Assembly (NCBI GenBank): GCA_947561715.1
Contig: OX387199.1
Span: 9,181,001-9,245,000, forward strand
Length of the DNA: 64,000 nucleotides
Reading direction: 5' to 3'
Source of the DNA: Ascidia mentula
Taxonomy: Eukaryota > Chordata > Ascidiacea > Phlebobranchia > Ascidiidae
Shown piece after piece: positions 1 to 64,000 of this stretch (positions are counted from its first letter, which is position 1; each line of letters begins with the position of its first letter). Both the position numbers and the translations under genes were made by a program. The notes under the pieces are model-generated. The model saw only the letters and a program-made list of their open reading frames with translations, did no database searches and had not been told where the DNA came from.

Positions 1-971
1 ATGTGTCGACGGTTCTGCGAATTCATGGTAAAAGGGTCTTTCCAAGATCGCTACTGCTCCGCATGTTTACGCTGTGGTTTTGTTGTAAATCGAATACAAG
101 GTCAGCATTGTTTTACAGCCTAAAACATTTATGATGTGCCGCACCCGGCTGGTTCGCGGCCGGTGCAACGCTGAAAGTTTGCTTTGTAGGTCTAATGCCA
201 TGTTTGCGTTGACTGGCGGCAATGTGGGGGCTCAAGTCAACAATTTTATCGCGGTATGTTTTGCGTTAAACATTACACGACCTGCGTGCCACAACGGTTA
301 GAAAAAGTTGCCACTGCGGCTCTTGCAAATGCAGGTTTCATTTTGTCATTGTCCCAATTTGTACGACACCAGTATAAACCTCAACGTATGCAGACTATTC
401 CGCATTTATATTGAAATACCAAACATATGCTTACTTGTTGGAATTGTTTTCGAAGCTTCGAAAAGTCATCCTTTGCCAATTCCTTGTATCTGGAATGCAG
501 ACGTTAATTACCATCGTTAACAGTATACGTCTAATAATCAAATGACTCTCTGTTGTACTGATTTGCTTCATATTTTTTGCCCCGAATCCCAAACAAAAAT
601 ACGGCATTCAATTACAAAGAGTGCAAACATAATGGTCAAAACCCTGAAAAGAGCCATATCGAGGCAATTAAATCCAGTACCTTCGTATATGGCAAGTGGC
701 TAATTAAAAACCCGTGTCTCATATAATGGCAAACAACAAACACTTTAAAAGGAACTACAGTACCTTGCAAGGATTTCTGGCAACCGAATCCCATACGATT
801 CATTTTCTGATACTTCTTCGTACACGTTGGATACACCTTGTTTTACAACACAACATGTTAATAGTAACATCAACCATATGCATAATACATCTGCTTTGGG
901 TATTAATTGTTGTATTTTATGTGCTGCCAACAATCGATTCAAAATTTTAAAAGTCCACTATACAATATTTT
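1..971. other. No recognisable gene
   Basis: No exon, RNA gene or repeat could be supported here. The stretch lies downstream of the stop codon of the minus-strand lectin/EGF receptor, so part of it may be that gene's 3' untranslated region. I did not find a convincing minus-strand polyadenylation signal. The short open frames overlap one another on both strands and have no domain character. Confidence 0.5.
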
Positions 972-3900
972 CTAGGTAATTTCCGTAAATCTATCAGATG
1001 TTTCTGTTGTTGTCTTTGCATTACAACACTATTGTAGGCCATGTGGACCATAACAAATCTGAAGCAAACTTACGTTTCAATGGAACCATAGATGGTTTTC
1101 TATCAATATTCTTTTCCTTTTGGCAACAACACCTATACAGGCAAAAATTTACACAAAATTATTTTCTATAAATTTGAGTTCATTTGGATCCACAATTTCG
1201 CAACTATCTTACCTTCTTCTGTACAGTAAAACGGTCGTTATAGTGATTATACACAGGACCAGAAAGGCTCCAATACCAATGATCAACCAAATCCACCAAT
1301 CCAAACCAGATTCGTCAGGGACTTCTTCTGTCATACAATCGTAATACAATTTAATTTTCGCCCACAATGTACCTTGTCAACCCTCTAACGGTTATTTAAA
1401 ATTTTAAACACGTGTTAACTTTGATAATCACCGGTGACCCGTACTTACTGTTTTCACAACTTTCCCCGAAATATCCTTTAATGCAATCACACACATACGC
1501 ACCGTCACTTCCTGGAACACAGGTGCCATTGTTTTGGCAACCAGTGACGAAACAATTTTCTGCACATGAAAATTTTGAAAATAAAAACTTAAACATCCTG
1601 ATGACAACGTTGCGTCACAAACAAAGAATTAATTTTTGTTGTTTACTAACCATTTTGACAGCTACTACCAACATATCCTGGTCGACATTCACATACAAAC
1701 GAACCGTCAGTTGGCACGCATGTTGCATCGTTGAGGCAAGTTCCACCTTCACAGATTTCTGCGAATTGGGGTTAACAGAAAACTGCTAAAGAGTTGATGC
1801 AAACATTTTATGAAATTAACGATCATTTAAAAAATATGAGTTGAATGTTTAAAATTATCGCCAATTTTTCTTTTCCAACATTGTAGAAAAATCTTTAATC
1901 GATCTTAATCAATCTTTTTTAAAACGTGTCGACGCTGCTAGCTCTGTTTCAACATAGGTATGCATATAATTACATACATGCCTAAAAAAATATATCCTTT
2001 TGGTCACTTACTGCCTTCACATCGATCTCCGGTGAATCCTCCCGAACAATCGCAGGTAAATGCCTCACCGTCAAATACGCAGGTGCCGTTGTTTTCACAC
2101 ACGCCGTGGTAACAATGCTCTGCATAGAAGTTAGACGCCTTAGTTTTGTTGCAACAACTGCATCCTCAAATAATAAAACCATTTGCGAAACCACTTACTC
2201 AGCTCACAATTTTTTCCAGCGAAACCATTCCCGCACAAACAAAACGTTTCTTTGCCGTTGTATCGATAACACGTGCCGTTGTTACAATTCGCATCGTCAC
2301 AGAACTCTGGAAACAAGACGATTTTACGGTGTCTATTTAAAAGTTAATTTAAAAAAATGGGGTTTACCCAGTCCGCAAGCGTCACCAAAATAATCATCTC
2401 GGCACTCACAATGGTGTGTGCCGTTCTGGATGTAACACGATCCACCATTCAGGCAGTATTCACCGTCGCAAAGCTCTGCACAGAAAATCATTGCAGGTTT
2501 ATACAAGTAAGTATTTGAGCGACACTGGGCCGAAACCAAACAACCCAGTTGTCAATGCGTTACGAGAAATCAGCATCAATGCTAAATTAGACTTGTTACC
2601 GCGTTCGCACGTATCTCCTTTAAAACCTTCCATGCACTTGCAATCAAAAGTGATTCCTGCTACCAAACAGATGCCGCCGTTTTTGCATGGGTCAGGTGCA
2701 CATGGTTCTGCATAACAAACAGCAAAGTCAGTCACATCGTGTTTTTTTTTGTATTGCCAGCTTTGTACCTAATGAGCAGTTTTTTCCAGCGAACCCATCC
2801 GTGCAGTTGCATATGTAGTCAGTTTCGTTTGCTCTACAGACGCCACCATTTTGGCACGGCTTGTCGATGCAAGGCGCTAATGCAAGATATGTACATCGTA
2901 ACATTTTACACCCGTGTTTCCCAACCTGGGGTTCGCGACACCAAAATATTGCGAATCGTATCAAGCGTTCCGTAAATAATCAAGAGCAGCCTTTTTATTC
3001 AAATTTACGTAGCCTTTATTGCATCGCCGTTTCTTTGTTCATTTACGAATTCTACTCAGTTTGTCACAAAGTCCGTCAGGTAAATTTTACGAGGGGGTCT
3101 ACAGACTTGATGTTTTTTATACCAGAGATCCAAGACTACATAGGTTGGTAACCACTGCGAAAAGGAAAAAAAGTTACCTATTGTGCAGTTTTCTCCTGCG
3201 TACTCCATGTCGCAGTTGCAGACGTAATTTGGACCGATTGCCTCGCAATCCCCATTATCGCCACACGGTTTATCAGAGCAAGGACCTTGAAGATAATATT
3301 TGTCGAACCACAATGCATACTGCACAATATAAATGAAATCATACCTATTTCGCAATAATCTCCTTTGTACCCGTTTTCACAGGAACATGTATAGTTAAAG
3401 CCATTTACCACACATGTTCCGTTATTTTCACATGGATTTGGCTTGCAAATATCTAAAATGTGCAGAATGTATACGATGCATAATTCCTCAAACAAATTAA
3501 TGCAAGCCCACCAGTTTCACAGTGTTTTCCAACGAACCCATCCGCGCAAGAACATGTAAACCCACAATTTGTTGAACTGCAATTAGCTCCATTTTTACAA
3601 ACTGAACGCATGCAGGGGTCTGTGAAAATCAAAATAATGTGTCGGAGATGCAAGAAACCATTAATGCACACGCTAAGACCATCAGTATACAATTAAGCAT
3701 CCGTTATAACATTTAAAGAAGATATGGGTGGAGCATTCTAATGTAGATTGCAGATTTCTGCAAAATCATTTGTCATGAAATAATAATCAGACTTTAGTAT
3801 TTTTCGGGCTTTAAAAATTTTTAGTAAATAAATGAAAAACTTTCCGGCCTTTGAATGTGCTGACCGTAATCATATACTCAGCTGCAGTACCTTTACTTTG

Positions 3901-4710
3901 ACAGCTTTTTGTCTTATTAAAGGCGACGCAGTATTCATTTTCATTGCACGACGGAACGCACGGGTCTGCAGAGTATAAAAAGAATGGTGGCAATTGCTTA
4001 ACATCCAAATAAAAACCTTACTTACCCATCTGACAAATGTACGAACCCCATCCTTCGGTTATATTTTTTCCCTTGGAAAACCATTCGCCCAACGTTGCCT
4101 TTTGGGCACTGACACGAAGGCCACATCCCATGTCGTTCCCAGTGTAGCACTTTGGCTCTTTTGATGTCCAATTTTCAAACCCCGATCCTCCATTATCAGG
4201 TAGCGTCCCCCTTCCATCAATCCATAGCCAATACCACTGACTTCCCTGTGCACCAGACCAGTATCCTGCTTTGTCTCCTAAAGATCCATCCACTTCATCC
4301 GCGCATAATTTCAGTTGTTCTGTGATGTTTGGTTGCAAGTTTTCTTCAATTATGACTAAAGTTCCCCCGGGCTGAGTGCCACCGGATTCAAGGTAATTTC
4401 CACAAAATGCATTTGCTTCATCAAAAGTAAGTGGCAAATTGTCGGACTTGTAAAATGCAATCGACTTTGTGCCTCGCCAGTCATCCTCGGATTTGTATTC
4501 AAACGAGGCAATAAAACCTAAAATATACATTGCCCGTTTTATGCGACAATCAATTGCAACAATCAGTTAGATAATTTTAAACAAGCGCAACGTAGATAAG
4601 AAATTGGTGGTGAGAATTCTTTACATTCTGTACTTACTTCCTTCAGCTTCGGTTTGTGAGAAATGCAAAGCTTGAAAAATGCAGAATGCAGTAATTCCTG
4701 CAAGTCTCAT
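972..4710 (-). CDS. C-type lectin / ten-EGF-repeat type I transmembrane receptor
   Basis: Sixteen-exon model: 4638-4710, 4026-4517, 3891-3965, 3512-3619, 3345-3452, 3178-3285, 2769-2876, 2600-2707, 2368-2475, 2199-2306, 2012-2119, 1651-1758, 1449-1559, 1213-1327, 1074-1099 and 972-1003. It totals 1,896 nt and 631 residues. Exon 1 encodes a start and a hydrophobic signal peptide (MRLAGITAFCIF...). Exon 2 is a C-type lectin-like domain (about residues 25-188) with a WYWLWIDG core and a C-terminal GWGSYIC. It has no EPN or QPD sugar-binding triplet. Exon 3 is a short Cys-rich piece. Exons 4-13 are ten EGF-like repeats, each one phase-1 exon of 108 nt (111 for the last). Exon 14 encodes a membrane helix (WWIWLIIGIGAFLVLC...) followed by Arg residues. 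The last two exons give a short tail with no signalling motif I recognise; they are the least certain, because an upstream acceptor would end the protein earlier. A role as a cell-surface adhesion or recognition receptor is inferred from the domains. Confidence 0.82.
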
Positions 4711-5362
4711 TTTTATACAGAAGTTCATGAAAAATTCTGACCCTTTTAGTTGCAGCGCTGTCTACAACTGCTTCGATCGCAACTTCGGTTTGGATTGTTT
4801 GCCCAACAAATGGTTTTAACGATCACCTCTTTTGTGCCACCACGCGGATGTAGTCAAACATATTTTTTTTTCTGTGTTTTTTAATCATTACATAAAAGGT
4901 TTCAGCATAAATTAAGTAAATATAAGCTGAACGAGTCTTTTGAACATACATCCCTTAGATTTATACTTGTTTGTTTTTGGTTCATAATTTTGTCCAGTTT
5001 GTTTTTCGAGTAAATGTTAAAGGAAAATAATTTATTAATCTAACTGGGAATGTTTTTTGGAATTTTTTGTAACTGTTAAACATCTTTCAACGATTTTATA
5101 CCGATAAAATAGTTTCAGTCTAAAGTTCATTATGGGCCTACATACGGCGCCGGAACCCTTATGAAATTTCTATCTATTGCAGGCGAAATGTCGGTGTAGT
5201 CATTTTACGTTAAGTTTGTCCTATTAGCTTCCTTAATCGCATTGCCTTTTTTGTGCCGTTTTTCATTTTGTTATTTTTGCTATCATCGATTTTTTTACAA
5301 AAGTAACTGTGTCTCACGAAACACAGCTACAGAGTATTTAATTTGGTTACTATAATGCTAAT
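4711..5362. other. Upstream region of lectin/EGF gene, no gene seen
   Basis: This AT-rich stretch precedes the start codon of the minus-strand lectin/EGF gene and must include its promoter and any 5' untranslated region. I could not identify a core promoter element. It ends at the 12-bp direct repeat (5351-5362) that flanks the ribozyme element. Confidence 0.4.
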
Positions 5363-5395
5363 TATATGCGCAAAAGAGCCATAATAATCAATGAG

Positions 5396-5455
5396 AGCTG
5401 CAGACAGGGTGTATACACGCACTGTTTCGACCTGTAAGGTCTCATCAGTGCAGCT
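5396..5455 (-). ncRNA. Hammerhead ribozyme, first direct copy
   Basis: Read on the minus strand: a 7-bp stem I (AGCUGCA with UGCAGCU) encloses the core CUGAUGA. Stem II is GACCU-UAC-AGGUC, then GAAA, then stem III ACAG/CUGU with an apical loop. The predicted cleavage triplet is GUC, with the cut between 5403 and 5402. All invariant core bases of a type I/III hammerhead are present, so self-cleavage is expected. Confidence 0.85.
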
Positions 5456-5688
5456 GTTGATGTGGCACTGTGCTAGCTGGTAGACTAGCAGGCACACAGA
5501 TTTCCACTTTGTGGTACCTTTCGGTCAATCGTCGATATGTTGGGTACCAAACTAGGTACCAATCAACACAGACGAACCACGTGGAGCGCACTATGGCCAA
5601 AACAACTGTTTGGGACCCAATAGCGCTATCGGCTCGGCTTTCACCCAAATCATATTATATGCGCAAAAGAGCCATAATAATCAATGAG

Positions 5689-5748
5689 AGCTGCAGACAG
5701 GGTGTATACACGCACTGTTTCGACCTGTAAGGTCTCATCAGTGCAGCT
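5689..5748 (-). ncRNA. Hammerhead ribozyme, second direct copy
   Basis: Same sequence and fold as the copy 293 bp upstream, with the complete core CUGAUGA, a 5-bp stem II, GAAA and GUC. Two ribozymes in the same orientation at one period would let a transcript be cut into a 293-nt monomer. This is the arrangement expected for rolling-type or circular RNA intermediates. Confidence 0.85.
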
Positions 5749-5982
5749 GTTGATGTGGCACTGTGCTAGCTGGTAGACTAGCAGGCACACAGATTTCCAC
5801 TTTGTGGTACCTTTCGGTCAATCGTCGATATGTTGGGTACCAAACTAGGTACCAATCAACACAGACGAACCTTGATTGGTACCTAGTTTGGTACCCAACA
5901 TATCGACGATTGACCGAAAGGTACCACAAAGTGGAAATCTGTGTGCCTGCTAGTCTACCAGCTAGCACAGTGCCACATCAAC

Positions 5983-6042
5983 AGCTGCACTGATGAGACC
6001 TTACAGGTCGAAACAGTGCGTGTATACACCCTGTCTGCAGCT
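5983..6042 (+). ncRNA. Hammerhead ribozyme, inverted copy
   Basis: Plus-strand copy inside the inverted part of the element. Stem I is 5983-5989 with 6036-6042 and the core CUGAUGA is 5990-5996. A perfect 5-bp stem II, GAAA and the GUC triplet follow, with predicted cleavage between 6035 and 6036. It can pair with either minus-orientation copy, so a read-through transcript would form a long duplex in competition with ribozyme folding. Confidence 0.85.
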
Positions 6043-6289
6043 CTCATTATAATGCTAATGTTGTATAAAATGTATGAGTTGGCCAGATATAACAATATTA
6101 CTTCACATTATATACTGGGACAGACCGACGAAACAACTCAACATCTTTGAAACATCATTTCAGCCATTGCGGAACCAAATCGGTGAAACAACTGAACTAC
6201 CTATTGTTAGAAGTTCTGCCAAGCAAAGAAATATAGTTTCGAAATTAAAACCGGCTTTTTGGGGGCGTTAGAGTGAAGAATTTTCCATG

Positions 6290-7040
6290 ACTGTTCAGCA
6301 GTGTCCCGAAGACCAGTACCCTAGGTCGAAAGCAGTATCCAATATCGGTTCACACGATTCCCAACTTTCAAAATCTGATCTGCCCGGATTTAGTTATCCT
6401 CCGCGTAGAAACAAAGGTTGGTCTGCATGTGATGTTTATTTGCAAGTTTTCTTCAATTATGGCCAAATTACCGGACTCGAGATAATTTTTACAAATCGCG
6501 TTGCGATATTTATTGAACTACTTAAAATGTTTCAAGGCGCCGAAAACACCGAAGAGTACTATTTTAAATAATCCTCTAGCGCCCTTGAAGCGCGTGTTAT
6601 TTATAAGTCCTCTAGCTCCACCACACGGATGTTGTATAAAATAATCCTGTAGCACCATAACATGAATAATATTTAAAACAGTCCTGTAGCTCCACCACAC
6701 GGATGTTATTTAAGATAATCTTCTAGGTCCAACAAGAAGATGTTACTTAAAATAACCCTGTAGCGCTATGAAGCGGATTTTATTTAAAATATTCCTCTGG
6801 GTCCAACATCCGTTTGGTGAAGTTTTTTTTTAAGTTACATCCGCGAGATGGAGGTAAAGGACTATTTTTAATAACATCCGTGTGGTGGAGCTACAACATA
6901 ATTTTATATAACATCCGCATGATGGAGGTAGGGGATTATTTTAAATCACATCCGCGTGTCCACTTCCTTCACGATTACTCAGTGTGAAATGCCAAGAAGA
7001 AAAAATGCAAAAGGCAGTCACTAATGACAGCAAGTCTCAT
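6290..7040 (-). pseudogene. Decayed duplicate of the lectin receptor 5' end
   Basis: Positions 6966-7040 align with exon 1 of the 972-4710 gene. The relic begins MRLAVIS but meets a stop codon after about 21 residues. Positions about 6420-6500 align with part of the lectin exon; the shared word ttgcaagttttcttcaatta is clear. They have no open frame. The order of the two pieces is that of the parent gene. The intron between them has been replaced or expanded by the minisatellite at 6570-6965. This is a dead partial tandem duplicate. The left limit is approximate. Confidence 0.6.
6570..6965. repeat. Degenerate minisatellite with internal inversion
   Basis: About five degenerate units of roughly 45-55 bp contain the words tcctctagctccaccacacggatgtta and variants (about 6570-6810). 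They are followed by about three units in the opposite orientation (acatccgcgagatggaggta and variants, about 6835-6965). The array can fold into an imperfect hairpin. A lone unit-like word, gccaccacgcggatgta, lies upstream of the intact gene near 4838. Confidence 0.7.
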
Positions 7041-7735: not shown

Positions 7736-10700
7736 TCATGTTGTCATCATGTGGTAAAGAAACGAGTATTGTTCCTGTAAAGAGGCATATGGTTGTTGAG
7801 GCTACAAATCGTTTGATCCTCATTATATATTTCGTATTACTCACTTGGGACGCGGCCACCGTCGGTATTTGCTTCCTCGTGTTGTGAACAGTCCTCATCA
7901 CGTTGATCATCCCTTCAGTCCGCTTGCGATGAAGGAGAGTCAGGAGACTGATGAAGTTGCCAGCGCGGTTCATGTCGACACTATAAGATACATTGTGTTT
8001 GGGTGTTTCAACATCTGTTGTAGCTGTTACATAATACAACTGCACAGATTTTGGGCAATTAGAAAACTTGTGTTTTCAATTAAGAAGATTTTCGGAATGT
8101 ATATTGCTATTTTGTGGCACGAAAGCCGCGCGCGTGTGCGCATCTACAAAATAGGTTTAAAGCTAATCACCACCAGAGTTCAGACTTTTTGTATTTTTAT
8201 TCTTACCCCGAGTGGACAAGAAGTGTGTCTTCGTTTGGTTGCGAGTTTTGCTCCAGTTGGCTGATAAGCTCCTTTAGATCGCGGAACTCATCAGGAGCGA
8301 GGTTTGAGGGCCACCCGGTATATTGCCAGTGTGTCACGCTGACCTGCAAAAACACAAGCAATGTTTCACTTCTCATATTCTCGACGTAAAATCTGCTTCT
8401 ATTCAATCTTGTGTAAAAACATATCGATCGGTTAAACGTTACCCGTGATCGTCCGCTGGAAACCGACAAGACTCTCTTTACGATGTAATCTGAGTGCTGT
8501 GTTTCGCTTTCCAGTTTCACTTTGAGACCGCGATGGAACCCCAATTTCCCAACGTCAGGCCAATACTTTATGGATTGCACCTAACAACAGATACAATAAT
8601 CGCCGATTTATGCCTGGCCGTATGGCAGACGAAACGTCGAAGGAATACAGTATGTGTATTTTATGCCAGAAGCTCAGTCTGTTTTCAATCGCCGATTTCT
8701 GTTCCTACGTTTTGTGTAAGTTCACTAAACCATTTTGGCTTTAGCGGTATAACGTTACATTAAGGTAAAAATTAATCAGTTATATATTTTTTTTTGTGTA
8801 TTCATCAGCGTTTATCACCATCACTTACAGAATGCAAAGCTTGCATCCTTGATTATCATTAAAATTTCATATCCATATAGCGTACAGTTTAAGAATACAT
8901 TCACTGCAGTGTAACTGATATTTTGGGGTATTTTGTTTATCTTAATTCTGCTTTCATTACAAATAGTGATTCGACTTGTTAATACGTGGATGGAGAGCTC
9001 CATTTACTCGATCTAATTAACGCATTTACAGAAAAACAACGTTTGCTACTTGATAATTTTGCAATCATACCGTGTCACGTTCCACAAGCTGAGTCAGCAT
9101 GACGATGTTGGTCGCTCGATAAACGAAAACGAACTGCCAGAAATCGGTGAGATTGTCCCATGTTGGAGCGCTAGTTGTCAGCGCTGTGGGGAACTGGGCA
9201 ACATTCTGAAACGCGCAACCTCTGACATAGAAACTTTTCACTTGTCCATCGACTTGAAACTGTATGTACTTGCTCTCTGCGGAAAATCGACAACAGTCGT
9301 TTAATGTAAATGTACGCCCCGAAAAATATCGTTTTGAATATTAATAGAATATTTAAATGACCGATGAAACGCTGTCGGACTCTGCAGTTAGCTTTAGGAC
9401 CATCAGAGACTTTGTAACAGATGTTCTTACAAATTTAGTACAAATTTACAAGTCGTCTATCATACAATATGATCCACTTTGCACATATGGTTTGAAATGT
9501 GCGTGAAAGCTTTGCAAAGTTTTAAATGCAACGTCTCATCACATATATTACACACAATATTGGATACCTTCTTGGAGTTGGTAGTTGGATACGATGTTCA
9601 AACTTTGAAGTTTACTCAGCTTTAACAGCTCAGTGTCGAAACCTGACCGTCCATCGGTTGTTCTTAACCAAATAATATCAATCAAATTATAAACTTGAGT
9701 AAGATTTTAATTAGCGCCTTTACCTTTCCAACACCTTTATCTTGAAAATAAACTGTTTGTCGACTTGATCGCTGTTTTCAAGGGTGTGGTACTCTGCCAA
9801 TAGTTTGTGGAGAAGAATATAATCCTCCTGCAAAATGTGCTGATAATGTTTTTTGCATCATACAATGTTCCTGACCAGGCCAACAAGTCAACACAAAGAT
9901 AAAACCGTGAACACATGGAGTATCGGATGCTGATTCATTACTATGAAAAATTACTAAAACATTTGAAATTAGGAAAACCTTCTTGCGTGGTTGGCATAAT
10001 TATGCAATGATTATAACCAGAAAACTTTACCAGCTTTTCCACAAAAATGTCGCACTGAACTCTGAACTCCATCACAGTGTTAAAAATTTCCAGCGTCTTG
10101 GACACTTTGAGCTGTTGTAGCAAAGCAAAATACGCGATGAAACAGGAGTGCTCAGACATGCCTTCGCTGCAATACAAAGTAAACACGATGTTGTAAGGGG
10201 TAATCCGTCAACCACACAGCCTCATTAGCTTTAATACACTTTTGAAGTTATATTTGTACCAGGATCATAAAAAGGGGGCGTGGTAGTGTTTGTGTGATAA
10301 CGTTGCGTCGCTCATATTGATGCTTTTCATGAAACAAATATTAATCATATTGACTAGAGTAGACGTTTCGAACACTAACTGCGTTCATCATCAGTACTAT
10401 AATGAGCTACATGCAGCAGAACCGAAACTTGATTATTAGCAAAGTAAACCGTGCGTTCGTTTTAGCGACAGGTACAGTGATGTCATTTCAGAAGAAGGCA
10501 TGTGATTTTCCGCTCCGTTTAAATGCTATAGTACGTAGCGACTACTGCGTGAGTTTAATAAACATCACCACAACATGTAATAAAAACTTTATCCTTGTGT
10601 TTCATAATGATGTTAATTTTACGTATATAGCCGAGGTGTTTTCCATTTCGTATCTTTTCTTTGATTGTTGACTTTCAGTGTTGGCAAACAACAAAATCAT

Positions 10701-13700
10701 GCCCGGTCGCAAACAGTGTGTCTGGAGGCAATTGCGCTAGCGCTCTGCTGTTATCGCAGCTCTGTTTGTCTCAAACACTTGGGCAAACATGCACTAGATT
10801 ATGCTGTACCCAATTTGTAACCTCTACTCACTTGCTGTGAACCAACATTGTACAGGGGGGCCTAGATTTGTTCGTTGTGCTTCGTAAGTCTGCCACGAAA
10901 CGGTGGAACCCAGGATGGGTCAAAACCTGGTTAATGTCGCCTGGTTCCGTCCATCGATATTCCGTCAAGTGCTTACAACTCTGAAAACATTTGTACCACT
11001 GTTAGATAAATAAGCGAAGTCCGCAACACAAATGAATGCGTAATTACATCAAAAAGGCTACGATTCGAATCTTTGGATGTAGCCAGTGGTTATGTTCATT
11101 ACTTTTACATTGGTACCTCCGTATCTTATTACGAACCATTCATAAGATTTCTCTTTACAGAAAAAAGCAAAAACGCTTGATATCAGAGGCGCTGACCCCT
11201 AGATGACGAAATTGTGGGTGATACTTTTTCGTCAAAGTCTGATAACATATGACCCAATGGCTCACAAACAATGTTTGCTCAATTCGTGGAAAAGTTCGGT
11301 AAAGCACCTGACGTAAGCGTAACAATGTGAACAACTGGTGTAATTCTGGGCAAGTTCTTACTTGATTTAGTCAAATATTTAAGCAGCAGACAATCGAAAA
11401 TGGTTATATTGCTTTTAGCTTACCGTTGTGTAGGCGGTTCCTGTCTCTTCTATTTCGTAAGTGGTTACAACGTAGTGTTTTTTGTGCTCCTGGCCTGTTG
11501 TCTGTACCCTCATCTTTCCGTACACACAGGCGGCGTCATTTTGAGGTACATACTATAAAGTACAAGCGGTATTTCCATTACAAAATAGTTATCTGTTAAG
11601 CATGACGATACGTTCAAATCCTATCTATAAACAAGATCTACTTTTTGAAAATTAGGGTTACGTTTATTAGCATTCTAGAGCATACTTACTTTACGGACCA
11701 AACCTCAAACTGGTTCATTCGAGCCTAATACTATATTTTTTGGTCATTGCATACTTTGAATCTTCCATGTGTGTAACAACCGTATGACCATCAGAATCTG
11801 CATCTGAATTACCTGAGCATCATTGCCGAGTGAGACCAATATCGGACATCCCTCGCTGTGAAGGGTTTCCCAAAACTTGGACGCCTGATGAGCTTGAGGT
11901 GTTTGCATTGACAAAACCTGTAACGGGAAACCACAGTAACTGACCGCAATAGTGAAACTAAATTTTAAAGACTAAGTCAAATATTTGGACTTTTGGTCAT
12001 AATTATTCTGGTTGCACATACACTACCTGATATACTCCAAATTTAAGAGCCGAGGTCGGATTCGTGTCTGTGTGCAACTGAATTCGTATGAAGGTACCTG
12101 CGCGAATATCATATTTTAGTAAGGTATGTTTTTTTCGTAAGGTTTTATATGGGTTGAAGAAAAAAATAAAATGTCAGAAAAAAGACTACTGTTTCAGCAC
12201 AATGTTGTTGTGTTTTTTGTCTTACATAGTCAGAGTTAAAAGAGCTTAATACGGAAGAAGTTTTATATACTGAAACATAAACTTTGTCCAATTTTCTTAA
12301 AAAACAACACACATCTGCCCGCAACTGCCTTACATAGCTCTCCATGGTGATATGAGGCGTTCACGTAATGTCTTTCTCCTTTTGTCGATGCCACGACGGC
12401 TTTTAGGTTCTGAAACATAAAACACCGCTATTTAAAAATATCGAATACCATCTAATAACCCTATGATGTTGGCAAACATTTCTATTTCCTTGCACTACGA
12501 GCCAGCATCGGATCGTTCAAAAACATCGAGTGGCTTACGAAATGACTTGTACCGAAAAGCTGTTGCCATAACTGCCCGCGAGATACATTTTGTTTCATTA
12601 TTTTACGTTTGCTGATTATAGCCATAAAAGTGGTAGCACATAGTTATTTAGTAGAATTGTTGCAGCAAAATGTTTCTAATTATTTTGCAAGCATCACTTC
12701 ACTTGTGGAAATGACACCAGAATAGTTTTTTACCCTGAACTGAGCTTCGAAGACCGCATTGTTGTTTTGCTGCATTGCGCAGCATTTTTCCAACAAATTG
12801 TCTGCGTTTATAGTCAGTTGTTGTTGAGGGAGATCTGTTTCGTAGTCGTCGTCGTCGTTATCCCACTCTGGAGTTTGCTGTGTTTCGGAATGGCCGTCAG
12901 GGATGTGTCTAGGATCTAAAACATGATATTCCAGTTCAGCCTTGGTAATAAACTGGGACTTTTAACACGAACAGCTTTATACTAAGCATGACGCTACAGC
13001 ACAGAGCACTCATTTCAAAAACTTGTCTATACGCTAATTTTTTACGTTTTCCCTGGTTTTATGCGAGAACTGAAGTTAGAGGTGAAGATTTGTGTTTCAA
13101 TCCAGTCAATTTATTAATCCTTTTTATTTAATTACAAGAAAATGTTTTTAAATCTTTGTTTATGAGTAAAGCGATTCTTACTGGGTACGTATTGGTTTCC
13201 TCCACGAAGAGGAATGTCTTGTGATTTTGGTTGTTGCTGATTTTTGGATTTCCTGTGTTTAGAATTTTGAACAATAACATTACTGTTTTTATGTTACATG
13301 TTAGTGGACCCTTTTCTTAATTATATTTAATTTCCAAAGATGTGTCTGATTATAGGTTACTATTCTGGATATTTGCAATATAGTAAAAACCCAATGAGAT
13401 ACCTGCGGTGTATATACACAAGTAAAGCCGTTACAATCGCAATTAGCGCAACACCTCCGCAGACTGCTATTACGATAATTTTCCAGGTTGCAAACTCCTC
13501 AGATTCTTTCTCTGCGTCGACAAAACATTTAAATTGAAACTATGGCGTACAGTTAGTTAGAACAAGCAAAGGACCTTTGGCTTTACTTACCAGTGCAATT
13601 TTGGCCGGTATAATCTTCAGCACACTCACAGGTGTCGTTTTGGCAAGTTCCGTGTACACATGACTCGTCGTCGCAAATATTCATATCTATAAATATATCT

Positions 13701-15852
13701 ATACCATTGTCACCTCGTTTTGAGTTTAATTAAATACTATATTTTCCCACTAAATCTGCAAGAGCGAAAAAGGTAGTATTTGTATGTATATTCAAAATTC
13801 ATTGTTTTATCAGCACTGTAAGCGTGGCAAACATACACAGAAACATGTTATAACAAGTGTTAAGCGCTGCTTCTGTTGCATAGTGCGGCATTCCACTGCA
13901 AACTTCACACACACTTTGTCACGTATGCGACAAAGCCAAGTATGTGTACACATTTATTGTGTGCCAAACTTTTACGTAGCGAGGTACATGAATTTGTAGG
14001 TTTGACATTTGCCGCTATGCTTGCACAAGATTAAACCTTAGTTTGTAATGTCAAACCAAATTGTCACAATTTCAGAAAAAATTGAAACTTACAGATTTCG
14101 CAGAAGCGACCACTGTAGTTTTTCGGACAAGTGCAGTTAAATTCCTCCCCGTCTTCAAAACACTCTCCACCATTTTTGCAAGGCTTGGACCAACAAACTG
14201 CACAGATCACAACAAGTTTTAAATATTAATGACAACAACCAGTCATATGTAAAAAACATTGTTTTGGGACATTTCAGATCAATAAGGTGAAATGCACTAA
14301 TTGTATGTAAAGTAATATTAATATTATTGCATTCAAACTCACTGTATTCGCATGAGGAGCCACTGTAGTTTTGCGGGCAAACACAGGTAAATCCATCAAC
14401 GGCTTCATTGCAGGTACTGTTATTTTTGCACGGATTTGAGTCGCAAGCTGTAAATTGATTCCAAGTTAATATATTTTTTTGTGTGTAGAATTGCAATCAA
14501 CCACTTAGCTTAATGGGATCACCCCTACCTAAACTGCAGTTTGGAGGCTTGGTACCTTCTGGACATACGCATTCGTACTCAGTGGTATTCGAAACGCATA
14601 CTTTTTTACCGGGACAAACAATTCCACTGCAAATCTCTGAAAAAGTAAAGCATAAAACCGATATGAGGTAAGGCGCGAAATACCTTGTATATTTTAATCG
14701 AGTTTCCTTTGCTTTTCAAATCAACACTCTTAGACCTCATAATGAACTTTAACTCATGAGGTCTCTCTCAAGCAGGTAATTAGTTAAGTCGTGCCATCAA
14801 AATACTAAATTATTCTATCCTCCACTTGATAAAAATGACGTTGTCCCTTTAAAATGGCGCAGCAACAATAATAAAACTTTAAATTGTAAAAAATAAGTCC
14901 ACACAGTATAGTCTTTGAATTCATTGTTGCCAAACAAAAGGGTCCTTCAAAAATTTTTGCTGATAAGTCCTGCTATAAAGGCCTGCCGTGGTTGCATCTC
15001 GCACGTAGTCAAAAAACCTGCCAATTTTACTAATGATACAGCATTTGTCGTCCGCACAAATGTTTAAGTTATTTTGAAAAAAGCGACCAAATGCGGAATT
15101 CCTTGTTGTATTTTATAACTTACCTCGGAAACATATAAAACGATTGCGTTGACTTTTCTCTACATCTACCCAGTCTCCAAAATATAAAGTCTCGCTACTA
15201 ACATTGAGAGCCATTGCCTTGTTGTTTCCTGCCTTCGGTCGGTCAGCGGCCCAGTTAAAATACGTATCGTTACAAGAGTGGACATCCACCGAATCGCTGC
15301 AAGGTACCACAGTCCCGTCAAGCCATTGCCATGTGTTGTTTTTGCTTTCCGCTCCAACCCAGTAGTAAACGTCAGTGGAGGATGAATTATCGCTTGTTTG
15401 CTGCAGCTCAAGTTCGATGAAGCTTTGGGTGCTGTTGTCAAATATATATACAAGTGTCGCGTTGATGTCCTCGCATTTCCATTCAGCTTCAGTAAAGTTG
15501 CTGGTTTGGTTCTCGAAAAAGAACTCATAGCCTTGAAACGTTGGATTGTCTGAACGTAAAAACTATATTGTGAGAAACAAACTATATTTCAAGCAAACAA
15601 TTTTAGAAAATAAATGAATATTGAAGATAGTTAAATCTCTGGCGGTGGCTGTTTGGCCGACGAAGACTTAGTATCTGATTGTTCTACACAGCATTTATGT
15701 ACACCCAAAATTCATTTTCTATTAGCAAGTGTAGGTCGTGTTGAAATTCTGAAATGTAAACGCTACAACTTCCATGTACCTAGTTTATTTCCATAACAGG
15801 ATATAATGGTGCTGAGCAGCAACAGTACGTGAGACTTGTATTGAAGCAACAT
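7736..15852 (-). CDS. Lectin/EGF receptor with two inactive tyrosine-phosphatase domains
   Basis: Twenty-three-exon model: 15780-15852, 15124-15549, 14529-14636, 14343-14447, 14093-14197, 13591-13686, 13403-13511, 13182-13252, 12734-12915, 12334-12409, 12027-12097, 11813-11917, 11424-11552, 10832-10980, 10031-10166, 9724-9827, 9568-9662, 9362-9381, 9071-9274, 8443-8580, 8207-8343, 7845-7980 and 7736-7774. It totals 2,814 nt and 937 residues. It encodes a signal peptide, a C-type lectin domain (YYWVGA, WQWLDG), four EGF-like repeats, a membrane helix (residues about 314-338), an acidic juxtamembrane region and two PTP folds. D1 shows VNASY and FWETL. D2 shows YIQFQ, FWQFV, IVMLT and a C-terminal EQYSFLY. 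The HCX5R signature reads HSNEGMSE in D1 (Ser601, Glu607) and HSGVDMNR in D2 (Ser879). The WPD loops read WTE and WPS. Catalysis is therefore not expected; phosphotyrosine binding or scaffolding is inferred. The 20-nt exon 18 is the weakest. Confidence 0.82.
10354..10400 (-). ncRNA. Intronic hammerhead ribozyme (Penelope-type)
   Basis: It lies in the intron between exons 14 and 15 of the phosphatase-like receptor, sense to the gene. The core reads CUGAUGA. Stem II is about 6 bp (GAACGC with GUGUUC, one G-U pair), followed by GAAAC directly joined to GUC. Stem III is thus only the self-complementary ACGU, as reported for hammerheads of Penelope-like elements, which may work as dimers. Stem I has at least 4 bp (AGUA with UACU). 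The predicted cut is between 10362 and 10361. No element body is obvious around it. Confidence 0.7.
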
Positions 15853-49174: not shown

Positions 49175-49914
49175 ATGAATGTTACAAAATCGCTAAGAAA
49201 AGCTGACTTTGACGCCAGGCTAAGGCTGCGAAGGAAATTGAATGCAGGCTTCTAACTAAGAACGATCTTCCACAAGTTGTCGAATTTTTGGAAAAGTTTT
49301 ACACCATGCGTAATCCGATGAGGAATATCTTTAAAATAACAAGGGAAGACGTCGGCGATCGTGACAAAGTGCGAGCTGCAATTAAAATCAAAGACAACGC
49401 ATCGTTCGGACTTTTTCACAAAGGAACCAAGCAATTAGTAAGCATGTCATTGAACAGTATTCATGAAAAAAACTCGCTTAATCCAAAACCAACTGACAGC
49501 GAAATTGCGGCCGGGATGAAGGGTTACGAGCCAGTGATGAGGTTTGCCCGCTATCTGGAAAGAGACCTTTTTGAGGCTCTGGACGCTAATAAGTTTATGA
49601 TGCAAGGCTTGGGAGCGACCGATCCAGAATACTCCGGTTTGTGGCTAACGAAGTACTTTAAGATCGCTGATTTAGAAGACGAGATAGCCCGAAAAGCTGG
49701 TTGTGAGTACATAGTGGGAATGACAGTTTCGCGGTTTTCGCAAAGACGCATGGAGGAAAATCCCGACTTTGTGATGCTTAGAGAAGTGAAATACGCCGAA
49801 TACGTTGATCCTTTAACCGGGCAGAAACCTGATTTGTCTTTGTCACCAATCCACACTGCTGCTCGAGTTTACTACAAACGCTTAAAGCCGATCTCCAAAC
49901 GGGCCAACTTGTAA
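49175..49914 (+). pseudogene. GNAT-type acetyltransferase copy 1, N-terminal frameshift
   Basis: It aligns along its length with the intact copy at 51,757-52,491, including the EYSGL and SRFSQRRMEENP motifs. Compared with that copy, 4 nt are missing in the segment encoding FKARQAKAAKE, so the natural ATG at 49,175 is out of frame with the rest. The remainder, from about 49,250 to the stop at 49,914, is open and could start at the ATG at 49,306, giving a shortened protein of about 202 residues. Whether that form is used is unknown. Confidence 0.6.
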
Positions 49915-50572: not shown

Positions 50573-51756
50573 ACAAGGGACTAAGGCACGATCAATAATA
50601 ATGAACTTGGAAAATTCGGGTTACCTGTTTGTGTTTATTTCGAAAAAGCCAGGTTTTAATTTGTTTTGCCGGACATGTAAACTGTATGCGTGGTTCCACT
50701 TTGCTAATAGTAAGTTTGTTACGCTTGAGTGATTTTGATCATGTAACTTCAGCCATGGCCAATTTATCGCATGGTTTCACATTTTGGGATATCTTATTTG
50801 TGACATGAGCATCACTAAAAACAAATTACGACTTTTAACACGTATTCTGCATGTATGACCTTTCCTTTATTATATGTGTTTTTCTTCGTTCCCATTTGTA
50901 ATTATGTTGTGATTTCATACGCTTCATAGTGCTTTGCAAATGGCACATCTCTTATAATAAAATGTGTCCAGACATCTTGGGGCGATTTCACTGCAGAGAG
51001 ACAGTTGGAAGGGACATTTAGCCAAATTTAAGCCAACAGGCCTAAGTATAATCTCTGTAAATTTGGTTCCTAAAAGTAACCATCCCCATTTGTGCTTCAA
51101 ATATCTGTTTTTTACATTTATTAGAGGTATTAAGACCAAGAAACGATCTTCGCAATCAGAATCAACTTGGAAACGCGGTCGATTCTGTGTTAAGGGTTAT
51201 GTCGTTACATTGCATCTGAACGTCGGTATTGTCGCTGAACTTGTTTAATCCGAACCTAAGCACACTTGAGTTTGCTGGCGTAAAATGTTTGCTGAAGTGA
51301 AGTTAAATATTGACTACGGCTTGAAGCACATGCACAAAGCTATCCGGCCCAGGAATACTGGCTCTGCTTCAACAGATGAGAAATTTGACCAGATTGCTTG
51401 TATTTGAAAGTTGATACAGAAACTCTGCAAATACGGTTGATACAAAAACTTTGCGCATAACTTAAGATGGGTAGGCAAAGTTATTTACAGTAGATATTTT
51501 GTGGAGTTTGTTCGAGTCTTTATTAGTCCGAGTACTGTTGATCCCAAGTAGAAGTTATTTTTGCGCCACATACAAATTATTTGATTTGATTTATAAGATT
51601 TATGTCAATTAGTGTGTCGCGAAATAAGATACGATTTTGCTGCAATGGCTTAGACATTTAACTGAATTGCATTTTTCTTATGTTTATCAAGATACCACAT
51701 TATTAAAACTAGTGAGTGGCTGCAAATTTAGACAAAGAGGAAACTTTTGTCCTAAA

Positions 51757-52491
51757 ATGAATGCTACAAAACGAACAAAGAAAAACGACTTTAAAGCCAG
51801 ACAGGCGAAGGCAGCGAAGGAAATTGAATGCAAGCTTCTAACTGAGAAAGACCTTCCACAAGTTATCGAGTTTCTAGAAAGGTTTTTCACGACACGTAAT
51901 CCGGTAAGGGATATCTTCAAAGTTCAAAGGAAAGACGTTGGCAATTACGACAAAGTGCGAGCCGCGATGTGTATCAAAGACAACGTATCGTTCGGCCTTT
52001 TCCACAAACGCACCAAGAATTTGATCTATGTGTCGATATGTTGCTTTTATGAAAAAAACTCGCCCAAACTAACTAACATAGATATTAACGGGACGAAAAG
52101 ATTTGAGCCAGTAATAAGGTTTACCCGGTATGTCGAAAGAGGCCTCTTTGAAGCTTTGAAAACGGGTAAGTTCATGAAGCTGGAATTAAGGGCCACCGAT
52201 GCAGAATACTCCGGACTGAGGCTAAGGAAGTACTTTAAGATTCCTGATTTAGAAGACGAGATAGCCCGAGAAGCTGGTTGTGAGTACGTAGTGGGAATGC
52301 CAGTTTCGCGGTTTTCGCAAAGACGCATGGAGGAAAATCCCGACTTTGTGATGCTCAGAGAAGTGAAATACACAGAATACGTTGATCCTTTAACTGGGCA
52401 GAAACCTGATTTGTCTTTGTCACCAATTCACACTGCTGCTCGAGTTTACTACAAACGCTTGAAGCCGATCACAAAACGGGCCAACCTGTAA
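51757..52491 (+). CDS. GNAT-family N-acetyltransferase-like protein
   Basis: An intronless frame of 244 residues starting MNATKRTKKNDF. The order of blocks fits the GNAT fold: an N-terminal region LLTEKDLPQVIEFLERFF, a central strand region, a motif-A-like segment ATDAEYSGLRLRKYF (matching the acetyl-CoA loop region, but without a full R/QxxGxG/A), and a motif-B-like segment AREAGCEYVVGMPVSRFSQ followed by the F-x-x-L-REVKY end. An acetyl-CoA-dependent transferase is inferred; the substrate is unknown. It is the only copy of this local family without a frameshift. The single exon could reflect retroposition. The tighter start at 51,757 is preferred because it aligns with the ATG of the other copies. 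Confidence 0.6.
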   Translation: MNATKRTKKNDFKARQAKAAKEIECKLLTEKDLPQVIEFLERFFTTRNPVRDIFKVQRKDVGNYDKVRAAMCIKDNVSFGLFHKRTKNLIYVSICCFYEKNSPKLTNIDINGTKRFEPVIRFTRYVERGLFEALKTGKFMKLELRATDAEYSGLRLRKYFKIPDLEDEIAREAGCEYVVGMPVSRFSQRRMEENPDFVMLREVKYTEYVDPLTGQKPDLSLSPIHTAARVYYKRLKPITKRANL

Positions 52492-57082: not shown

Positions 57083-57876
57083 TTAGCAACAGAACCAATG
57101 CATGCAAGAATAGAAGAAACCAAAGATTATTTTCTGTGTACAATACAAGTTGGCTCGTTTTATGATCGCATTCAAGCGTTTGTAGTAACCTCGAGCGGCA
57201 GTGTGAATTGGTGACAAAGACAAATCAGGTTTCTGTCCAGTTAAAGGATCAACGTATTCTGCGTATTTCACTTCTCTGAGCATCACAAAGTCGGGATTTT
57301 CCTCCATGCGTCTTTGCGAAAACCGCGAAACTGGCATTCCCACTACGTACTCACAACCAGCTTCTCTGGCTATCTCGTCTTCTAAATCAGGAATGTTAAA
57401 GTACTTCCTTAGCCTCAATCCGGAATATTCTGGATCGGTGGCCCTTAATTCCAGCATCATGAACTTACCCGTTTTCGAAGCTTCAAACAGGCCTCTTTCG
57501 ACATACCGGTGGAACATTATTACTGGCCCTAATCTTTCCGTCCCGTCAATATCTCTGTTAGATAGTTTGGGCTAGTTTTTTTTATAAAAACAACATAACG
57601 ACACATAGATCAAATTCTTGGTGCGTTTGTGGAAAAGGCCGAATGAGACGTTGTCTTGATACATATCGCGGCTCGCACTTTGTCGTAATTGCCGACGTCT
57701 TTCCTTTGAACTTTGAAGATATTCCTTACCGGATTACTTGTCGTGAAAAACCTTTCTAGAAACTCGATAACTTGTGGAAAGTCTCTCTCAGTTAGAAGTC
57801 TGCATACAATTTCCATCGCAGCCTTCGCCTGTCTGGCGTCAAAGTAATTTTTCCTTGTTCGTTTTGTAGCATTCAT
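57083..57876 (-). pseudogene. Acetyltransferase copy, inverted, frameshifted
   Basis: Counterpart of the intact gene at 51,757-52,491. A one-base deletion in the segment encoding AAMCIKDNVSFG breaks the frame near 57,655. The original stop TAA has become TAT, so the second open part runs on for about 20 residues. Motif regions EYSGLRLRKYF and SRFSQRRMEENP remain readable. Confidence 0.7.
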
Positions 57877-57974
57877 TTTAGGATAAAAGTTTCCGCTTTG
57901 GTTAAATTTGTAGCCACTCACTAGTTTTAATAATGTGGTATCTTGATAAACATAACAACAATACAATTCAGTTA

Positions 57975-58201
57975 GAGCTGCAGACAGGGTGTATACACGC
58001 ACTGTTTCGACCTGTAAGGTCCCAACATATCGACGATTGACCGAAAGGTACCACAAAGTGGAAATCTGTGTGCCTGCTAGTCTACCAGCTAGCACAGTGC
58101 CACATCAACAGCTGCACTGATGAGAACTTACAGGTCGAAACAGTGCATGTATACACCCTGTCTGCAGCTCTCATTGATTATTATGGCTCTTTTGCGCATA
58201 T
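57975..58201. mobile_element. Retrozyme-like element with 15-bp target duplication
   Basis: A 227-bp insertion of the 5.4-6.0 kb family, rearranged so that a partial minus-orientation end is joined to a plus-orientation copy. It is flanked by a perfect 15-bp duplication, aatacaattcagtta, at 57,960-57,974 and 58,202-58,216. The empty site is present in the left arm at 51,659-51,673 as a single copy with one base different. Confidence 0.85.
58110..58169 (+). ncRNA. Hammerhead ribozyme in the 58-kb element
   Basis: It has CUGAUGA, GAAA, stem III ACAG/CUGU, the GUC triplet and a 7-bp stem I. One change in stem II (GAACU for GACCU) gives an internal A-G mismatch. Cleavage may be slowed but is plausible. 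Predicted cut between 58,162 and 58,163. Confidence 0.75.
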
Positions 58202-60929: not shown

Positions 60930-62136
60930 ATAAACGAAGGCAATAAACGACGTCCTTCGTTAGATTCCGTGACATACAACGTTTGTATACAGGTAACGTT
61001 CTCTAAATAAAGTGTAAGGAAGAGAAACCCTTGCATTTCGTAATCGTTTACAATTATTTCATGCCTGTCAGCCGATGTCCATCTTTGGTTAAGCTTTCTG
61101 AAATACACGCTCCAATTTGCATCTAATATAGAATTATTTATTTGCATAACTACCGCTTTCGTTTAGACCAGCGACGCGTCTGCAGAAGCAGGTACCCAGT
61201 CCACCGTCGCGATTGAACTGATCGGCGAGGACGGTTCGTCAACCGATTGGCACAACCTTGACAATTGTTGTACACAAAACTTCGAGCGCGGTCAGGAAGA
61301 CAACTTCAAAATCACCTCTTCCGACATCGGCCTTCCCATAATAGTTCGACTCAGTAAGGAAGGGTTGGAAAAAATAACTGTGATTTGTTTTGATACCCGC
61401 AAAAAGTTATACATATACAAATACCATTTGTGTGACAGAGCTCGACCACAGGAGGGGTTTAGACCAATGGTTGTGCGACCGAATCGTTGTTGAGACTAAA
61501 AGTAGTCGCGTCGAGTTTCCCGTTTACGATTGGATCGAGGATTTAGTGGAAGTAACGAGGGGCGAAGGTTAGTTGTGATAAGCAATTATTTTTCCTATTC
61601 AAGTCGTGTGTCAGTATTGGTTTGGTTTTTGCCCAACCAGTATTTTGCACCAATTTCGTATAAACTACAGGTTTAATGTTTGTCTCGAAACCATACTGAA
61701 CTATTTTTTTTGTTATGAAGTAGGGTTTGAGTTTCAAAAGTAAATTCTATTTCGCTTTTTTCACACATACTGTGAGGTTTCGTATACTGAAAAGGTATAA
61801 AACATTTGCGCAAAAGTGTTCCATACTGTAGTGTCACAAAGACAAAGTCACCTATACTGCTTACCGTCTTAACGGTTTTCAACAGCTCAACTACCCCAGA
61901 AGGTAACAAACGCCTACGTTAAGTCCCTTCGGCGAAACGAAGTTAACCAAAATAAGGCGACCTTTGCGTGGTCACTGCGACCCACAAAGAATAACCTCGC
62001 TTGGGGGATGAATAGAGTGCTTGAGGCGACTACATATGACGATCTTCCAAAGTTATTCAAGAGGGAAGAGATACGGGAGAGCGGGTTGAAGAAAATACGC
62101 GTGAATGCACTTATTCATACGCACACAGAATTTCTT
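60930..62136 (+). pseudogene. Lipoxygenase D fragment, exons 1-4 only
   Basis: Exon counterparts: 60930-60992, 61167-61353, 61439-61567 and 61886-62136, with splice sites kept. The start codon ATG has become ATA. Exon 2 has lost a conserved Trp (to Cys). Exon 4 is 251 nt where the parent has 255, with a 4-nt deletion near its 3' end. The copy ends in the following intron, at the edge of the inverted repeat, so the catalytic domain is absent. It cannot make a lipoxygenase. Confidence 0.85.
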
Positions 62137-62247
62137 GTGAGTAACCCTTGCAGTAACCTTTAGTCCACTTTATTTGTTTTTTTTTTCAATAATAATGTAT
62201 TAAAATCCAAACACAGCGATCTTCAAACAGCTCAGATCGATTTATTT

Positions 62248-62744: not shown

Positions 62745-64000
62745 CTATTTGCATGATGGTGTTACCATGGTTTGCACATTTATTTGTGCCCGTATTCTGT
62801 GCAACCATAAGTCCTCATATAGATCCAAACTCCCTGCAGGTGGTTTTTGCACGAACGTCACGTCATAGCAACTTGGCAATATGGGTCTTTGCTGGAATGT
62901 CTCGCTATGCTTCTTCAGGTAGTGGTTACCCAGCGCCGTAGCATCGCTATCTAGCGAGCACTCGAAGTGGTACCAAGTAGACCTGTGAGCATTCCAGCGA
63001 GTGGAGAACTTGTTTTTCGTCTGCCCAACATACTGGGCTCCGCAGGTTTTGCACGAGGCCACATATATCCCATAGTCGCGACATGTTAGTCGCTGACGCA
63101 ACATTATTCTGCCTTTGGGGGTACACAGGAAGGTAGTTGTGGGCACCATGGGCTCGTGGTTACCATGGTGCCCGCACAGCGCACAGTGGCCGCAAGGGGC
63201 CGATTGGCCAGTGTCCCGAGGCTCGGTGTGATGGGCAAGCTGCTTGTAGTGGCATAGTTTGTTAAACATCGTTGGTCCTCTCCGATAAACGATGGAAGCA
63301 TTTGCCTGGAGGCTCAATTCCTTGGGCGAAAGACGCAGTATATGAGGGAATGCTGTTGCCCAGATAAGTTTGTGCAGGCTTGGAAGCGAGTCTACCGACT
63401 TGTTGTGGAAGAATCTAGACTTCCAAGCGCTGGCTGTTGCTAACACATCGCATGTCATCCTCACCGGGAAATTGGATTTCACAGCTTTATCTTTGAGCCA
63501 CAATAGGGCCTTTTTGTAGTCGCTTTCATTCTCGTTTAAGCGCCGCATCCGTATGGCTTCGGAAAACACAATTGATTTAAACACATGGATTGGGTGGTGG
63601 GAACGCCCATTAAGAAAACAACGGTCAAGTGCTGTGGGCTTAGTGTGATTGGTGGTTTTGAAGCCCGCCAGTGACATGGGGTCGATAATGTGGCACACAT
63701 CAAGAAATTCAACTCCAGTGCATGGCTTTGCCGTTGTGGCTTGGCGGAAAGTTAGTTCCAAGCCTGCGTTACGAAAGCATTCCACCAACTTCTGTTGTAT
63801 GACATTGGTTGTTTTAACCCCAAGCGACACCCATATAATGTCATCAATGAACCTCTTAAATATGTACGCCTTGTTTATTGCTGTGGCAGCTTTGCAAACA
63901 ATGAAGTGAACAGCAATGTTAGCCACCGATACTGAGTTATTGTCACCTGTGACAATGCCTTCTTTTTGGCAATAAAAAGAATCTGCATTCCTCAATATGG
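62745..64000 (-). CDS. Penelope-like reverse transcriptase/GIY-YIG endonuclease, 5' truncated by window
   Basis: The frame stays open to the window edge (at least 417 codons), so the true start is outside. The visible protein has the C-terminal half of the polymerase: a Gly-containing block before DNNSVSVANIAVHFI and the catalytic FIDDI motif. It then has a thumb-like region, a Cys/His cluster (CGHCALCGHH) and the GIY-YIG nuclease (YGIYVASCKTC, QYVGQT, R and H further on). It ends at TAG 62,745-62,747. The protein would nick target DNA and prime reverse transcription. No internal stop or frameshift is seen, so the copy may be recent. The upstream N-terminal part cannot be judged. Confidence 0.88.
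   Translation of the reverse strand, partial: ILRNADSFYCQKEGIVTGDNNSVSVANIAVHFIVCKAATAINKAYIFKRFIDDIIWVSLGVKTTNVIQQKLVECFRNAGLELTFRQATTAKPCTGVEFLDVCHIIDPMSLAGFKTTNHTKPTALDRCFLNGRSHHPIHVFKSIVFSEAIRMRRLNENESDYKKALLWLKDKAVKSNFPVRMTCDVLATASAWKSRFFHNKSVDSLPSLHKLIWATAFPHILRLSPKELSLQANASIVYRRGPTMFNKLCHYKQLAHHTEPRDTGQSAPCGHCALCGHHGNHEPMVPTTTFLCTPKGRIMLRQRLTCRDYGIYVASCKTCGAQYVGQTKNKFSTRWNAHRSTWYHFECSLDSDATALGNHYLKKHSETFQQRPILPSCYDVTFVQKPPAGSLDLYEDLWLHRIRAQINVQTMVTPSCK

Follow-up and report, generated by a model that had tools for sequence, protein, structure and literature searches.

Why does a receptor gene stay open after both of its phosphatase domains have lost their nucleophile? The question is raised by gene A, a 23-exon receptor-type protein tyrosine phosphatase (PTP) gene at 7736..15852 on the minus strand of a 64,000-nucleotide window from the ascidian Ascidia mentula (contig OX387199.1, our C52, positions 9,181,001 to 9,245,000; unless contig positions are named, coordinates are those of this window, meaning the whole stretch of DNA that was analysed). 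Three receptor PTP genes stand in tandem here on the same strand, A followed by B and C. We propose, at a probability of about 0.58, that gene A is a maintained double pseudophosphatase serving as a decoy or scaffold within this array. It retains its C-type lectin and EGF ectodomain, and its two PTP domains (D1 and D2) have a recognisable fold from which catalysis is not expected. As a decoy it would bind the ligands or partners of the family and deliver no phosphatase activity; alternatively, D1 and D2 might serve as protein-binding scaffolds, and heteromers with the products of B and C are conceivable. We infer that gene A is expressed, that its product lies at the cell surface and binds a ligand, and that it has a decoy or scaffold role. 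This reading is favoured because 947 codons are open across 23 exons, because the two PTP folds score 78 and 120 bits, because simulated neutral mutation soon introduces stops, and because the sister genes keep their cysteines.

The catalytic loops of gene A

The coding sequence of gene A (2844 nt) runs from an ATG at 15852 to a TGA ending at 7736, which is exactly the span given by an earlier reading of the DNA from its letters alone (the sequence-only reading). We built the model from a three-frame reading of the minus strand, with exons joined at canonical splice sites; all 22 introns are GT-AG, and there are no internal stops over 947 codons. Its weak parts are exons 11 and 18, which are short, without clear homology and accepted on phase fit, and exon 17, whose acceptor was picked partly because an alternative acceptor yields a stop. 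All three lie outside the catalytic exons. Exons 9-16 (9724..12915) encode the juxtamembrane part and D1, which matches PF00102 at 8.6e-22 (78.3 bits), and exons 17-23 (7736..9662) encode the linker and D2, which matches at 2e-34 (119.7 bits). In the PDB, this region best matches the tandem domains of PTPRS and PTPRA, whose His-Cys aligns with the His-Ser of gene A. Taken together, the Pfam and PDB matches show that the likeness of D1 and D2 to PTP domains is not due to chance.

An active classical PTP carries both HCX5R and WPD, and neither D1 nor D2 does. The WPD of D1 is replaced by WTE (10945..10953), and its His-Cys by His-Ser (CAC AGC, 10834..10839). A phase-2 intron follows, which genes B and C also have; the next exon continues with GAA GGC ATG TCT GAG, giving the loop HSNEGMSE, in which the P-loop Arg is replaced by Glu (GAG, 10151..10153). 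Of the five positions that separate Cys from Arg, four carry a different residue from HCSAGVGR of gene C. The corresponding changes in D2 are WPS for WPD (8305..8313) and His-Ser (CAC TCG, 8209..8214) for His-Cys, again followed by a phase-2 intron; the codons GTC GAC ATG AAC CGC then complete HSGVDMNR, a loop that retains Arg (CGC, 7965..7967) but has Asp within it. These motifs were reported by the sequence-only reading and stand when checked codon by codon, and its exon numbers, 14/15 and 21/22, agree with the 23-exon model. The phosphotyrosine (pTyr) loop, KNRY, could not be recognised by eye in D1, where the Pfam match begins at profile position 19 and a short exon may have been missed. 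Both domains thus combine a PTP fold, as judged by sequence profile, with the loss of catalytic residues, which is the mark of a pseudophosphatase. Neither would be able to form a phosphocysteine intermediate, and catalysis is not expected. The central claim of the sequence-only reading, that a receptor phosphatase with lectin and EGF domains has lost both nucleophiles, is borne out by the two Cys-to-Ser changes and by the Lectin_C, EGF and PF00102 matches.

The serines could be an artefact of the gene model or the assembly if a hidden exon or a base error supplied HCX5R, and the sequence does come from a single assembly. However, the Ser codons sit in homology-anchored exons in both domains, and D1 also lacks the Arg, which is encoded by a separate exon. 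The phase-2 P-loop intron occupies the same position in D1 and D2 of genes A, B and C; because position and phase are shared with the sisters, the splice model is sound at both serines. An alternative exon restoring HCX5R, the outcome that the sequence-only reading had itself set against its claim, did not turn up in a search of the gene's coding strand: no contiguous HCX5R occurs on that strand between 15900 and 7600, and one occurs on the opposite strand. His-Cys codons followed by two nucleotides and a GT donor are present at 11273 and 8363 and were considered as alternative catalytic exons, neither of them usable by our reading; the one at 11273, in intron 13, does not look like a PTP exon by eye and, even if used, would be spliced to Glu. 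We find an artefact scarcely credible.

Replacing Cys by Ser is the classical way to turn a PTP into a trap. The sequence-only reading took gene A for a phosphotyrosine-binding or decoy receptor; in a binding receptor, the serines would abolish catalysis and preserve binding to substrate. The retained P-loop Arg of D2, together with much of its fold (119.7 bits), fits this idea. Yet a trap would be expected to retain the Arg and the glycines of its loop as well as the pTyr loop, and the idea is unsupported here: the Arg of D1 is Glu, several conserved residues are gone from both P-loops, Asp intrudes into the loop of D2, WPD has become WTE and WPS, and D1 shows no recognisable KNRY loop. Phosphotyrosine binding is thus not upheld for D1 and is doubtful for D2, and we consider a substrate trap improbable; the decoy half of the proposal may hold.

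Drift and probable constraint in an open frame

The main argument for a function without catalysis comes from the length of the open frame. When the coding sequence was mutated without constraint in 1000 simulated runs, a divergence of 3% produced a mean of 3.7 stops and left 2.8% of the runs stop-free, and a divergence of 5% produced a mean of 6.2 stops and left 0.1% stop-free. The catalytic changes in gene A look far too numerous for so short a neutral time; therefore, the frame was probably held open after catalysis had been lost, although a recent end of constraint is still compatible with these numbers.

The rate of change was assessed with a tree of 12 PTP domains, whose rows are exon composites joined by eye and partly incomplete for B and C; one row combines two members of an array, and the same composites were used for the counts of conserved positions. 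The D2 of gene A groups with those of B and C at 93/93, slightly below the firm-support mark of the tool, and the forks among the D1 domains are open. The end branches leading to D1 and D2 of gene A measure 3.62 and 2.62 changes per column, against 0.51-1.02 for all others, and the D1 of gene A is 24-26% identical to those of B and C, which share 46% with each other. On branch length and identity, gene A is the most divergent and fastest-evolving member of the three-gene array. Selective loss of catalysis was considered and rejected, as catalytic positions have been lost no more than other conserved ones. Gene A keeps 3/10 catalytic and 16/43 other family-conserved positions in D1 (p = 1.0), and 4/10 and 23/47, respectively, in D2 (p = 0.73). 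Thus, the losses do not concentrate on catalytic residues; the entire intracellular part has drifted fast.

These data also bear on the main rival, in which gene A is an early pseudogene that lost its function recently, its PTP part having relaxed first, and that is now unconstrained without having acquired a stop. The very long branches of both domains, the even loss of conserved positions and the doubtful exons 11 and 18 are in line with this account. It is harder to reconcile with 947 stop-free codons and canonical ends at all 22 introns, given that a neutral divergence of 5% would bring a mean of 6.2 simulated stops. We judge it unlikely, if still a serious contender. A different account holds that a catalysis-free surface function, adhesion through the lectin and EGF domains, is all that matters and that the intracellular part is passive. 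The ectodomain is indeed recognisable and the PTP part has drifted evenly, but if D1 and D2 were dispensable, their 583 codons ought to have tolerated a stop at some point, and the frame is open to its C-terminal EQYSFLY. This we regard as very improbable.

Several points weigh against a maintained double pseudophosphatase. The even loss of conserved positions in both domains (p = 1.0 and 0.73) fits general relaxation as well as it fits repurposing. The tree is built on exon composites, and the tool warns that the placement of long-branch rows is unsure. The simulation ignores insertions and deletions, and some exon ends of the model were chosen to keep the frame open. Finally, no close paralog or second copy of gene A appeared among the 48 of 487 genome candidates that were scored, a set in which B and C are also unlisted and in which matches outside gene A were limited to weaker EGF, lectin and PTP ones.

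Ectodomain, sister genes and the wider family

Gene A has the layout of a receptor-type tandem PTP, which by sequence comprises an extracellular part, one transmembrane helix and two PTP folds. Exon 1 (15780..15852) carries the start codon and a signal-peptide-like leader, hydrophobic by eye. Exon 2 (15124..15549) encodes the C-type lectin domain, which matches Lectin_C at 1e-10 with 42.7 bits, above the curated cut-off of 22.6; exons 1 and 2 joined score 42.2 bits (1.5e-10), and the nearest PDB structures to exon 2 are lectins of the DC-SIGN family (2.6e-6). Lectin_C is absent from a Pfam scan of the whole 364-amino acid N-terminal part, even at an E value of 10, which we read as an effect of HMMER's filters. 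Calcium-dependent sugar-binding C-type lectins carry EPN/QPD and WND motifs; by eye, gene A has DRP and WVD at these places, a region before which both PDB alignments stop. The four EGF-like exons, 3-6 (13591..14636), are all of phase 1 and match Pfam EGF at 2e-12; two stretches pass Pfam individually, and the count of four is based on the cysteine pattern. Exon 7 (13403..13511) encodes the transmembrane helix, within residues 310-340 of the protein (Kyte-Doolittle maximum 2.9). Pfam scans of the ectodomain listed lectin and EGF families, and MAM, Ig and FN3 were not among the matches.

The 5' part of gene B lies on the minus strand at 1..4566 and continues beyond the window start. It comprises a lectin-like exon in the open reading frame (ORF) 4566-4021, which at 16.1 bits is below the Pfam cut-off of 22.6 and is matched by the lectin domain of gene A at 7e-6 in a search within 214 kb, followed by about 10 EGF-like exons (3614-1453) and a transmembrane segment in the ORF 1376-1212. 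D1 and D2 of gene B both lie outside the window, with WRK and HCSTGAGR in the former and WSD and HCTDGAGR in the latter; Cys and Arg are retained in both domains, and the WPD loop of D1 is altered. Gene C, at about 9,172,300-9,163,000 of the contig (minus strand), has a transmembrane segment, D1, D2 and one EGF-like exon that was found; a lectin domain was not found in it. Its D1 is canonical (WPD, HCSAGVGR, 224 bits), and its D2 is degenerate (WED, MCSDGRGK) with the cysteine retained. A tblastn search of 9,091,001 to 9,305,000 at E 0.5 detected no PTP match beyond the three genes. Judged by their loops, they form a graded series, with C active-looking, B altered in the WPD loop of D1 and A apparently dead in both domains, which offers a natural series for testing the catalysis-free functions of receptor phosphatases. 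A fragment at 6371-6517 on the minus strand resembles the lectin exon of gene B (45 nt at 87% identity, 6428-6472); it lies between genes A and B and is probably a duplicate left as a relic.

A PTP profile search of the genome returned at least 211 exon matches, many in tight clusters, on contigs C1, C2, C52, C67, C70, C72, C73 and others; this is a very large receptor-PTP expansion. In one cluster, at 16.9-17.4 Mb of C72, 20 tandem members (L052-L071) were picked from those listed by their first PTP exon, irrespective of the cysteine, and their catalytic exons, taken as those of D1, were read. His-Cys is present in 20/20, and the WPD loop reads WPG in 15/20 and WPD in 5/20. Removing the Asp of WPD is a classical way of making a substrate trap, and the members with WPG may form a whole sub-array of natural traps. 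His-Cys was likewise present in 18/18 others from clusters on C2, C70 and C72, a biased sample chosen for profile matches that reach the cysteine. A further member of the C72 array, L030, carries a lectin half-domain upstream of its PTP exons (30.3 bits against the cut-off of 22.6; L030:525-3593) and several upstream Ig-like exons that score below their Pfam cut-offs. Two ORFs of L028, in the C2 array, were read by eye as lectin exons and were not confirmed by Pfam. The C72 array and genes B and C resemble gene A in their P-loop intron, B and C also in their EGF domains, and B and one C72 member in a lectin-like ectodomain; they differ from it in having the cysteine in every D1 examined, and B and C have it in D2 as well. 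Gene A is the sole D1 without a cysteine among the D1 domains examined.

Known receptors and other features of the window

The human R2B receptor PTPRU also has two pseudophosphatase domains, with altered WPD and pTyr loops, and it binds substrates without catalysis and protects them (PMC7320164). The sequence-only reading had called the loss of both nucleophiles unusual, which is right in kind, although PTPRU already provides a receptor with two pseudophosphatase domains, albeit one that keeps its D1 cysteine. That cysteine is redox-sensitive (PMC7320164); in gene A, the nucleophile itself is gone from both domains. PTPRU further differs in being a vertebrate gene, of a subgroup with MAM, Ig and FN3 rather than lectin and EGF ectodomains (PMC10815196).

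A second parallel is the SudRes1 region of the snail Biomphalaria sudanica, which is linked to schistosome resistance and encodes EGF-rich, carbohydrate-binding receptor PTPs with tandem PTP domains (PMC12297450). These invertebrate proteins share their general layout with gene A, but their galactose-binding domains are not C-type lectins, they belong to a mollusc, and the passages cited do not describe them as catalytically dead (PMC12297450). Because of this resistance link, a recognition role seems reasonable for receptors of the gene A type, and gene A hints that tunicates may have a recognition system made of lectin-type receptor phosphatases. A bolder proposal, which we hold to be rather unlikely, is that a large, clustered family of receptor phosphatases with lectin domains provides tunicates with receptors of an immune or self-recognition kind, whose signal is the phosphatase activity. 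Gene A would then be a germline-encoded decoy that has an ectodomain of the family's kind but neither catalytic centre and works against its active tandem sisters. Among vertebrates, PTP-GMC1 is listed with Fugu proteins that have C-type lectin-like domains, a likeness to gene A taken from a table entry (PMC514892). Neither a lectin-EGF receptor phosphatase of tunicates nor a receptor PTP in which serine replaces both cysteines was among the literature matches listed, which cover part of the hits in open-licence literature. Receptor PTPs, pseudophosphatases and the combination of lectin and PTP are each known; a lectin/EGF receptor that lacks both nucleophiles was not met in the listed literature.

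Other parts of the window hold repeats and further gene families. A perfect 218-nt direct repeat and perfect inverted repeats of 177 nt at 5361-6048 mark a young palindromic repeat element, and the ORF 57613-58104 contains a stretch of similar translation. The 417-amino acid ORF at 62748-63998 (minus strand) matches reverse transcriptase and GIY-YIG profiles at scores under their cut-offs and resembles a Penelope-like element. Repeated exons at 20424-44600 (minus strand) and 61873-62160 (plus strand), apparently several tandem copies, resemble lipoxygenase in the motif PIAIQL...W.LAK; four of these ORFs were scanned, with no Pfam match at 0.01. Three related ORFs, at 49213-49911 and 51628-52488 on the plus strand and 57086-57571 on the minus strand, form a duplicated family, and the first, the only one scanned, had no Pfam match at 0.01. 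Outside the window, the mitochondrial code itself marks the animal as a tunicate. The open frames of mitochondrial COX1, ATP6 and COX2 contain 18, 7 and 7 AGR codons, respectively. Many of those in COX1 fall at glycine places, such as the conserved glycines of GGFGNW and DPGGGGDP, and reading AGR as Gly corresponds to the ascidian mitochondrial code (table 13).

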